Source: Reyranella aquatilis (GTDB lineage: Bacteria > Pseudomonadota > Alphaproteobacteria > Reyranellales > Reyranellaceae). Taken from it: DNA of 64,000 bases. Made by a program: the position numbers and the translations under genes. The stretch covers positions 806,001-870,000 of the forward strand of contig NZ_JAJISD010000001.1 of assembly GCF_020880995.1 (NCBI RefSeq), in the 5' to 3' direction. Below the pieces are notes generated by a model. It searched no databases. It saw only the letters and a program-made list of their open reading frames with translations, and was not told the origin of the DNA. Below, piece after piece: positions 42,025 to 44,660 of the stretch (position 1 is the first letter of the stretch; each line of letters begins with the position of its first letter).

Positions 42025-42783
42025 TCAGGCCGCGAACTTCGCGAGCGCGTCGTCCGAAACCTCGAAGTTGGCGTAGACATTCTGGACGTCGTCGTTGTCT
42101 TCAAGCGCGGCGATCAGATCGAGCAGGGTCTGCACCGTCTCACCCTCGATCGGCGCCCCGGTCTTCGGACGCCAGGTCAGCTTGGCGACGCTGGGCTGCC
42201 CGAGCGACTTCTCCAGCGCCTCGCGCACCAGATTGAAATCGTCCTGCGCGCAGTAGATCTCGTGGACCGCGCCCTCACCCTCGCCGCTCACCACGTCGTC
42301 GGCACCGGCCTCAATCGCCTTCTCCATCACCTCGTCGGCCGTGCCGACGCTGAGCGGGAAGCGGAACTCGCCCAGCCGGTCAAACATGAACGACACGCTG
42401 TTGGACTCCCCCAGGTTGCCGCCGTGCTTGGAGAAGATCGAGCGGACCTCGCCTGCGGTACGGTTGCGGTTGTTGGTCAGCGCCTCGACGATCACGGCGA
42501 CGCCCGCCGGGCCGTAGCCCTCGTAGCGCACCTCGTCGTAGTTCGCGTCCGCGTCCGGTCCCGAACCGCGCTTGATCGCGCGGTCGATTGTGTCGCGGGT
42601 CATGTTGGCATCGCGGGCGGCGATCACGGCGGCGCGCAGGCGCGGGTTCGAGGCGGGATCGGCGGCGCCCAGCCGGGCGGCTGTCGTGATCTCGCGGATC
42701 AGCTTGGTGAAGATCTTGGCCCGCACGGCGTCCTGACGCCCCTTGCGGTGCATGATGTTCTTGAATTGGGAATGCCCCGCCAT
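42025..42783 (-). CDS. yebC: YebC/PmpR family DNA-binding regulator
   Basis: 252 residues from the ATG at 42783. The N-terminus [19 protein letters not shown] is the hallmark of this family. It continues with [21 protein letters not shown] and, in the second domain, [19 protein letters not shown]. The protein regulates transcription and, in some bacteria, relieves ribosome stalling. It opens the ruvCAB-tol block. It is preceded by two tandem terminators belonging to an upstream transcript. Confidence 0.95.
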
Positions 42784-42876
42784 CGCCGACAACCAGATTA
42801 GGTAACGAGAAGAGCCGCCTATACCACTTCTCGTGGGTTTTGGCAGGCTAGAGACGTCCCAACGGCCCATCGGGAC

Positions 42877-42904
42877 AAAAAAAGGCGGGGGCCGAAGCCC
42901 CCGC
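42877..42904 (-). terminator. Rho-independent terminator (second of a tandem pair)
   Basis: Stem GCGGGGGC/GCCCCCGC (42885-42892 with 42897-42904) with a UUCG tetraloop on the minus strand, then seven U residues (A7 at 42877-42883). It is a textbook intrinsic terminator reading towards yebC. Confidence 0.9.
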
Positions 42905-42985
42905 TAAAAAACGTCGGAACCTTGATTCCGACGCCCCCTCTAACCTAGAAGACCGTTCGCCCAAGATGGCGAAAAACTCTTTAAC
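42885..42985 (-). ncRNA. Candidate small RNA between ymdB-like gene and yebC
   Basis: The 301-bp interval 42784-43084 has no credible gene. On the minus strand it has a promoter-like TTGACG (43015-43020), a 17-bp spacer and CATCCT (42992-42997), predicting a start near 42985. Three hairpins follow: TTCGCC/GGCGAA (42956-42961 with 42968-42973), then the two terminators. That makes an 80-100 nt transcript with three stem-loops. No known RNA family was recognised. The alternative is that the terminators merely end the upstream mRNA. Confidence 0.4.
42906..42933 (-). terminator. Rho-independent terminator (first of a tandem pair)
   Basis: Stem CGTCGGAA/TTCCGACG (42912-42919 with 42926-42933) with a 6-nt loop, followed on the minus strand by six U residues (42906-42911). 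It lies one base before the next terminator. Confidence 0.88.
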
Positions 42986-43084
42986 TTCAAAAGGATGCCG
43001 GTTTTTCCCCAGGCCGTCAACGACGCTTTTCAAGCCACTCCTAATAGGTGTGCAGGGTGCGTGCCGGATACCAGATACGGGAAA

Positions 43085-43891
43085 TCAGGCGGTCTGAGCC
43101 AGGCGCCCCCCCACCCTGACCGGGCGGATCGACTTCGCCAGCCCCGTTCGGTCGTCGGTTTCGACAACCGCCGCGCACAAAGTCCCCTCGCCCTCAGCAG
43201 GCGAGAGCCGCTCACCCGGCATTTTCCGGATGAACCGCTGCATCGCGACTTCCTTTTTCATGCCGATCACGCTGTCATAGTCGCCGCACATCCCGACGTC
43301 GGTCTGGTAGGCCGTGCCGCCCGGCAGCACCCAGCCATCGGCCGTCGGCACGTGGCTGTGGCTGCCCAGCACCGCCGAGGCCCGGCCGTCGCAGAAATGA
43401 CCGATCGACTGCTTCTCGCTGGTCGCCTCGCCATGGACGTCGACCAGAATCAGCTGGGCCCCACGCCCCAATGCGTACTTCGAGAGTTCTGCGTCGAGCG
43501 CCCGGAAAGGATCGTCGAGCGCGTCCATGAACAGGCGGCACATCACATTGATCACGACGACCTTCTGGCCACGCGGGGTCTGGAACAGATTGGCGCCCCA
43601 CCCCGGCGTGCCGGGCGGGAAATTGATCGGCCGCAACAGACGTTTGTCCTGCGCGATGTAGGGGATGATCTCGCGCTGGTCCCAGGCGTGGTTGCCGGTG
43701 GTGATGCAGTCTACGCCCGCCTCGTGCAGCTCTGCACAGATCTTTGCAGTGATCCCGAAGCCGGCCGCCGCGTTCTCGCCGTTCACCACGACGAAATCGA
43801 GCCCGAGTTCGCGCCGCAGCCGGGGCACTTCCTTGACGACCGCGTCGCGGCCGGCGCGGCCGACGATGTCGCCGCAAAACATGATCTTCAT
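43085..43891 (-). CDS. YmdB-type metallophosphoesterase (TIGR00282)
   Basis: 268 residues. Dimetal motifs: MFCGDIVGRAGRDAV (Asp), VVNGENAAAGFGIT (Asn/Glu), TTGNHAWDQREI (Asn-His), LVDVHGEATSEKQ, and GSHSHVPTADG. The last two supply the remaining metal-binding histidines. Bacillus YmdB and Deinococcus homologues hydrolyse 2',3'-cAMP and affect gene expression. Its start is 3 bp after the 5-FCL stop, so the two are cotranslated. Confidence 0.9.
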   Translation of the reverse strand: MKIMFCGDIVGRAGRDAVVKEVPRLRRELGLDFVVVNGENAAAGFGITAKICAELHEAGVDCITTGNHAWDQREIIPYIAQDKRLLRPINFPPGTPGWGANLFQTPRGQKVVVINVMCRLFMDALDDPFRALDAELSKYALGRGAQLILVDVHGEATSEKQSIGHFCDGRASAVLGSHSHVPTADGWVLPGGTAYQTDVGMCGDYDSVIGMKKEVAMQRFIRKMPGERLSPAEGEGTLCAAVVETDDRTGLAKSIRPVRVGGRLAQTA

Positions 43892-44470: not shown

Positions 44471-44519
44471 ACTGCGGTTGCCGGAAAGCGAGTGGGGCGG
44501 CTCCACGATGGGCCGTGAT

Positions 44520-44660
44520 TCGTAGAACCACCAAGGCCTGCAAAAGCAGGTGGGCGTCGTGTGGCCAAGACCAGGGTCAAGGCCAGGTACAACTCCCAGG
44601 AGTTCTTATTGGCCCCGGGGTTTTAAGCGAACTACGCGCCGCGCAGAAATCCGCCCCACC
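44520..44660 (-). ncRNA. ssrS: Probable 6S RNA (ssrS)
   Basis: It lies between zapA and the cyclo-ligase gene, where 6S RNA sits in many proteobacteria. The minus strand has a promoter-like TTGCGG (44686-44691), 16-bp spacer and TTAGAT (44664-44669), predicting a start near 44658. The transcript can fold as a rod: an outer stem (44548-44556 with about 44652-44661, one bulge), an asymmetric bubble, an inner stem GGCCAA/TTGGCC (44563-44568 with 44609-44614) and an apical hairpin AACTCC/GGAGTT (44591-44604). A further CCTGC/GCAGG hairpin lies at the 3' side. The ends are approximate, and the call rests on position and fold. Confidence 0.6.

Follow-up and report, generated by a model that had tools for sequence, protein, structure and literature searches.

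A predicted small RNA downstream of ymdB in the Reyranellaceae, with conserved complementary sites in ybjN and ftsL mRNAs

The window considered here is a stretch of 64,000 nt of the alphaproteobacterium Reyranella aquatilis, whose genus occurs in soil and water, corresponding to positions 806001–870000 of contig 1 of the genome designated G000. On its minus strand follow, in this order, a 6S RNA, an open reading frame (44506–43895), ymdB, a gap of 301 nt between the stop codon of ymdB and the ATG of yebC, yebC itself and more genes. The 6S RNA (44496–44652; Rfam RF00013, 52.4 bits) lies upstream of the genes of the ymdB operon, and the open reading frame and the 6S match overlap at the end of the latter. 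Upstream of the 6S RNA, the sequences GCATTGC and TTAGATAG are conserved in 54 Reyranella sequences. The product of ymdB (43085–43891, minus strand) is a YmdB-like phosphoesterase (Pfam PF13277, E = 8e-100); that of yebC (42025–42783, minus strand) belongs to the TACO1/YebC family (PF01709, PF20772). The predicted RNA discussed below is encoded between these two genes, downstream of ymdB and upstream of yebC.

The gap contains several elements, all on the minus strand. A −35 box, TTGACG (43015–43020), is separated by 17 nt from a −10 box, CATCCT (42992–42997). Further along is a 5′ hairpin, TTCGCC-ATCTTG-GGCGAA (42956–42973), and beyond it a pairing region, AGAGGGGGCGUCGGAA (42926–42941), which comprises a single-stranded linker and the 5′ arm of the first terminator; its core, GAGGGGGCGUCG (42940–42929), spans linker and first terminator arm. 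Terminator 1 (T1; 42906–42933) consists of CGTCGGAA and TTCCGACG (42933–42912), which form eight perfect pairs around six intervening nucleotides, and of TTTTTT (42911–42906). After a single A (42905) follows terminator 2 (T2; 42877–42904), composed of GCGGGGGC-TTCG-GCCCCCGC (42904–42885), a C and TTTTTTT (42883–42877), with eight G–C pairs and a UUCG loop. Both have the form of Rho-independent terminators with a U tract. The initial annotation, made from the sequence of the window, had pointed out the promoter-like pair, the hairpin and the two terminators one base apart, and all of these are present on the minus strand where it placed them. Its estimate of an RNA of 80–100 nt can be refined with comparative support: the best reading is either a short form of about 80 nt that stops at T1, near 42906, or a long form of about 109 nt (42877–42985), with the start predicted from the −10 box.

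Taken singly, these elements are not beyond chance. In a simple scan of 801 bases no sigma70 promoter was reported, and T2 was the single terminator-like site, with 0.8 expected in shuffled sequences. They exceed chance because they are conserved: TTGACG, with its 17-nt spacing, is identical in 62 of 62 distinct ymdB–yebC gaps, and T1 and T2 are nearly invariant. These 62 gaps, which were aligned, are 298–304 nt long except for two (324 and 400 nt). They were taken from 167 loci by a rule on length, identity and the presence of both genes, which left out L057, L074/L116, L118, L013/L086, duplicates and the genera g26, g27 and g29; L158, of genus g28, was included. Mean pairwise identity is 0.80 over the whole gap, 1.0 in the −35 box, 0.94 in the −10 box, 0.92 in the 5′ unpaired stretch and 0.74 in the variable 5′ hairpin, and reaches 0.964 in the linker, 0.974 in T1 and 0.997 in T2. 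Over the 31 nt after T2 it falls to 0.50. As yardsticks, fourfold-degenerate sites give 0.63 in ymdB (89 sites, 56 sequences) and 0.60 in yebC (67 sites, 61 sequences), and the neighbouring 6S RNA gives 0.88 (54 aligned rows); the linker and the terminators are thus more conserved than the 6S RNA.

Other parts of the gap are conserved as well. An upstream element (43069–43076, minus strand), ATCTTGT in most species and ATCTGGT here, has a mean pairwise identity of 0.91 versus 0.46 for the adjoining 43066–43050, and a TTGTA-like sequence occurs at about the same distance in g26 and g27. A second element with dyad symmetry, CCTATTAGNNGTG (43037–43049, minus strand), has an identity of 0.84 over the 62 gaps. 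With their fixed spacing, (A)TCTTGTATCC and CCTATTAGNNGTG (together 43037–43076) are candidate regulator sites. A possible upstream promoter, TTGTAT-N20-CTATTA, was rejected; its spacing is too long and it is not kept in g26. On the yebC side, a block at 42818–42844 (minus strand; identity 0.92) with the extended −10 sequence GTGGTATAG resembles a promoter and may act as one for yebC. This block, CCAAAACCCACGAGAAGTGGTATAG, has an extended −10, no clear −35 and a CCAC/GTGG dyad; it is possibly activator-dependent. Since yebC has this conserved promoter-like block of its own (42844–42818), the earlier proposal that the double terminator insulates yebC is plausible.

The predicted 109-nt RNA folds with −50.1 kcal/mol (z = −5.2), and none of 200 shuffled sequences was as stable. 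In three relatives z ranges from −4.6 to −6.8, again with 0 of 200 shuffles as stable in each; for a longer stretch of 215 nt it is only −1.6. The covariation that the initial annotation had suggested as a check is of little help, as the sequences are too conserved to prove the fold: among 29 predicted pairs one shows a two-sided change, a G–C pair of T1 that is A–U in 2 of 58 sequences.

Could the conserved gap encode a protein instead? An open reading frame starting with TTG (43033–42848) could yield up to 61 amino acids, and AGGAG precedes the TTG. The start is not conserved, however; indels of 1 nt in and after the 5′ hairpin break the frame, and the reading frame crosses both terminators. 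The coding stretch was rejected on these grounds, and a small protein is scarcely credible.

A covariance model, R1, built from 58 distinct sequences, matches 73 of the 76 genomes of the order, including all 51 of good quality, and places the RNA in all five genera of the Reyranellaceae. There is one full-strength match per genome; in G098 a short contig carries an additional, partial copy. The three genomes missed by R1 are G026, with ymdB at a contig end, G033, in which no ymdB was found (both incomplete assemblies), and G061, the sole sister-family genome in the order. G061 lacks the RNA as well as the ybjN and ftsL sites described below.

The copies in g26 and g27 are diverged (71–77 bits) and lie 170–370 nt downstream of ymdB. 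Here the distance to yebC exceeds 1 kb, or yebC is outside the stretch read, and the RNA still follows ymdB; it therefore appears to travel with ymdB and has room for a promoter of its own. A cis-acting leader of yebC was rejected, as in these genera the RNA is not directly upstream of that gene. The −35 box is present in all eight aligned g26/g27 copies, at nearly the same distance from a conserved ACGGTTTTT; a −10 box is not recognisable at 17 nt from it. Of the putative promoter proposed initially, TTGACG is kept family-wide; the −10, which reads CATCNT in most of g1, is conserved only in g1, g28 and g29. Much the same holds for the 5′ hairpin: TTCGCC/GGCGAA is found in the near-identical copies of g1, g28 and g29, and a different one, GAACGG../..CGTTC, replaces it in g26 and g27. 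Terminator 2 is GGCGGGGGU..ACCCCCGCC in these two genera, with a different loop. What all copies of the family share is TTGACG, a U-rich stretch, T1, T2 and GTTAGAGGGGGCGTCGGAA, the last altered at one or two bases in a few species.

These data bear on another explanation, according to which the gap contains only the double terminator, that is, the 3′ untranslated region (3′UTR) of the ymdB operon, which insulates yebC and gives no independent RNA. As this would require, the two hairpins make good intrinsic terminators, and in the aligned genomes they follow ymdB. Termination alone, though, would call for neither the invariant linker nor the invariant TTGACG situated about 90 nt before T1; the distance from ymdB to the start of the RNA is some 320–370 nt in g26, and linker and T1 arm have conserved complements in ybjN and ftsL. 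A mere terminator region is accordingly an improbable reading, and an independent RNA is preferred.

Outside the family the RNA seems to be absent. A search of the class gave 35 of 289 genomes at E ≤ 0.1, including four of the family itself, and the best match outside scored 31.8 bits versus 71–149 bits inside; only 12 first-look candidates per genome were scored, so that diverged relatives could be missed. Among 17 loci from the class (L179–L195), ymdB is nearby only in L179, a locus of the family itself, and the others are therefore read as chance terminators. No plasmid relatives were found, and viral contigs gave no exact 19-mer. The view that it matches no known family holds for Rfam 15, which gives no match at the gathering threshold over this stretch; two further copies of the RNA, one from g26 and one from g27, match no family either. 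The best Rfam score, 26.9 bits for ncS025 (RF02869, Burkholderia sRNA 25), is far below the gathering score of 46, and membership was rejected.

In many Reyranella genomes 16 nt of the RNA, AGAGGGGGCGTCGGAA, are found again downstream of an uncharacterised gene with a ybjN domain (PF10722); the search for targets was pattern-based, and the ybjN site surfaced from this recurring repeat. As AGAGGGGGCGTCGGAA is on the strand opposite ybjN, the ybjN mRNA carries its complement, usually 10–20 nt past the stop codon (range 4–49). In g1 the stop codon is followed by GGACC-N-UCCGACGCCCCCUCU (some sequences lack the N), by a stretch rich in A, by GUUCGGAU-N-GUCC or a similar sequence and by a GC-rich hairpin, so that the site precedes ybjN's own GC-rich hairpin/terminator. 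The alignment comprises 30 distinct sequences from 38 loci, the others being duplicates or off-pattern. In most of the 30, lgt is the next gene, with a CTATAA box near its ATG; this box, very close to the ATG (L232 and relatives), suggests that the lgt leader is short or absent. The ybjN 3′UTR is otherwise different in g26 and g27, yet g26 has kept UCCGACGCCCCCUC with one or two mismatches in 15 and g27 has kept UUCCGACGCCCCCUC with none in 15.

The ybjN gene was read in 56 of the 76 genomes of the order, namely 55 Reyranellaceae and G061. The core, CGACGCCCCCUC, is exact in 51 of the 55 (50 by script, and G057 by eye; the latter scored five mismatches only from unread bases before the site and is exact in the alignment). 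G041, G046 and G085 have one mismatch, in G085 a G–U variant that keeps pairing; G004, with 7% contamination, has three, and G061 has four. No ybjN match was found in G029, G048, G051 and G094; many genomes of the order outside the set of 56 show the 21-mer. Out of 1000 shuffled sites, none equalled the observed match in g26, g27 or g28 and 2 did so in g29, compared with 285 of 1000 in G061, where ybjN directly precedes a reading frame that, from its translation, is presumably proC. When all 15-mers of the RNA were compared, the best complement in the ybjN 3′UTR was this very piece in g26 and g28, one base over in g27 and two bases away from it in g29.

The second partner is a coding sequence. 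A search with the core in 13 genomes, and the reading of 18 contexts, led to a gene which, from the translations, we take to be ftsL and which follows one taken to be rsmH; the usual order is MraZ–RsmH–FtsL–FtsI. The gene was then read in 30 genomes, picked so that all six genera were represented. Every one of the 29 Reyranellaceae among them has the 12-nt core without a mismatch (mean mismatch 0.0). The median over all 12-mers of the RNA is 3.9, and the best same-sense 12-mer reaches 2.7; among 22 windows of other g1 DNA the minimum mean mismatch is 3.0, and 0 of 200 shuffled sites matched as well. With at most one mismatch allowed, 28 of the 29 genomes have two sites, G085 has one and G061 none. 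The twin sites are about 104–110 nt apart in g1 and g28, and 18 nt apart in g26, g27 and g29.

The first site in g1 and g28, CGACGUCCCCUC, retains a G–U pair; the exact one, GGACCCACGACGCCCCCTCG, is read as TTPPRPA. The other g1 site and the sites in g26, g27 and g29 are read in another frame (DVPS, DAPS). That the same nucleotides serve two frames points to selection on the RNA, not on the peptide. Across 21 g1 genomes the exact-site columns are 1.0 identical (0.985 with the preceding GGACCC), versus 0.74 in the flanking coding sequence. FtsL has 172–199 amino acids in the family and 119 in G061; since the latter is shorter and without sites, the sites appear to lie in a family-specific C-terminal extension. 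This extension (L314–L343) is of low complexity and holds the twin sites. Local duplexes between the RNA and ftsL have energies of −28 to −39 kcal/mol in three genera, and 0–1 of 1000 shuffles are as low. In g26 and g27 one ftsL site can fold into a perfect hairpin, as can the ybjN site in g26.

The presence of one 12–16-nt sequence at three loci of one family would look alike if it were a DNA-level motif bound by a protein, without RNA–RNA complementarity, and the perfect hairpins just mentioned could be taken in the same sense. All copies, however, are situated where transcription is expected, in antisense orientation relative to the RNA; exact copies are few per genome, so that this is no genome-wide motif, and the flanks on the target side vary freely. 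A DNA motif is for these reasons a very improbable explanation. What is found, namely a conserved pairing region complementary to unlinked mRNAs in five genera, is typical of a trans-acting RNA.

This picture is qualified by several results. Local pairing is strong; whole-length duplex energies are no better than with shuffled UTRs. Because the pairing region does not vary, RNA and targets show hardly any covariation, and the variants (G–U) only keep pairing. T1 contains part of this region and must be opened for pairing. A wider regulon is not supported by 79 site contexts from five genomes. The complement of the 12-mer, GUUAGAGGGGGC, gave fewer matches than a reversed control, and near-sites with one mismatch in G000 number 37, against about 28–38 expected from Markov models, so that there is no general excess. 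Within the 79 contexts, the genes shared between genomes at the site are ftsL, nrdA (in two g27 genomes only) and one conserved coding stretch whose site has mismatches (L360/L373); the other matches listed are weak. In g27, exact sites for CCGACGCCCCCTC (L296, L297, L299/L303, L302) occur in or near genes which, judging by their translations, are presumably dnaA, gcvT, nrdA and a parA-like gene. The dnaA site is inside the gene, that of gcvT is at the start codon, that of nrdA is close to the 3′ end and that of the parA-like gene close to the start. All four are absent from G000 and G011 at up to one mismatch and are leads only. An exact site in G042 (L306) stands beside an apparent inverted repeat, CCTCTCCCCCTAGCGGGGGAGAGG, probably by chance.

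Taken together, the comparison of genomes makes it probable that a trans-acting small RNA (sRNA), transcribed independently and specific to the Reyranellaceae, is encoded in the gap, with the ybjN 3′UTR and ftsL as its partners. In favour of this are the conservation of the RNA, that of the complementary sites, their joint presence or absence (the latter in one sister-family genome) and the use of several reading frames. Transcription, direct pairing and the direction and sign of regulation are inferred, and an RNA chaperone such as Hfq or ProQ, frequent but not obligatory for sRNAs of this class, may take part. Transcription would start just past TTGACG/CATCNT and end after about 80 nt, at T1, or after about 109 nt, at T2, and the RNA would present its single-stranded, G-rich linker, GUUAGAGGGGG, beside T1. 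Single-stranded AGAGGGGG could then nucleate on a CCCCCUC stretch of the target mRNA, which in g26 and g27 would often be the loop of a target hairpin, and pairing would zip into CGUCGG of the 5′ arm of T1 to give 12–16 contiguous pairs. The ybjN and ftsL sites are off the ribosome-binding sites, and simple translation block therefore does not apply; given their location in a 3′UTR and in coding sequence, the RNA would more likely control mRNA decay than block initiation. The likely outcome would be post-transcriptional control, via mRNA stability or decay, of the division gene ftsL and of ybjN.

Regulation might also run in the reverse direction: the ybjN 3′UTR, a fragment of the ftsL mRNA or both could sponge or destabilise the sRNA, with its main targets elsewhere. 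The position of the sites suits a sponge, as that in ybjN is in the 3′UTR before the gene's own hairpin/terminator, those in ftsL are in coding sequence and neither is at a start codon. There is precedent from the same gene cluster in E. coli, where FtsO, cut from ftsI, is described as a sponge of RybB (PMC7815308), and a stable ftsL-derived fragment is reported (PMC6156199). Against it, a third conserved target was not found, which leaves the sRNA without known alternative regulation, and this direction is unlikely. A three-RNA circuit, in which the sRNA docks at the ftsL twin sites and the ybjN 3′UTR competes for the G-rich linker, is put forward tentatively. If true, selection would shape a part of ftsL for RNA docking in whichever frame the protein tolerates, and the level of ybjN mRNA would set the action of the sRNA on ftsL and hence on division.

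The preferred reading, an sRNA acting on ybjN and ftsL, would add a so far undescribed sRNA family with two partners backed by deep conservation. Titles and the beginnings of abstracts in the literature revealed no Reyranella sRNA and no sRNA acting on ybjN in Alphaproteobacteria. What makes ftsL unusual is that coding sites in different frames separate selection for RNA pairing from selection on the protein, and the link between an sRNA and cell division can be tested.

Among known systems, the present RNA may be likened to alphaproteobacterial trans-acting sRNAs such as EcpR1 of Sinorhizobium meliloti, with other neighbours and another motif. EcpR1 binds the cell-cycle mRNAs gcrA and dnaA, with several sites in one mRNA (PMC4414408). 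Like the RNA predicted here, it is an intergenic alphaproteobacterial trans-sRNA with a conserved GC-rich pairing motif and strong GC pairing. EcpR1 is located downstream of divK-pleD in Rhizobiales, whereas the present RNA is downstream of ymdB with yebC beyond; its loop motif, UCCGCCGCAUCU, is absent from the present RNA, which has GAGGGGGCGUCG instead; and its confirmed sites are in 5′ regions, in contrast to candidate sites in a 3′UTR and in coding sequence here. The E. coli FtsO and ftsL-derived RNAs (PMC7815308, PMC6156199) likewise combine division-gene coding RNA with an sRNA-pairing site conserved above the rest of the gene. FtsO differs in that the coding-sequence fragment itself regulates, as the RybB sponge (PMC7815308); here the RNA is separate and intergenic, and the host gene of the site is ftsL. 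Lastly, UpsM of Rhodobacter sphaeroides is the 5′ leader of the cluster itself (PMC5089854), whereas the RNA predicted here has no linkage to that cluster.
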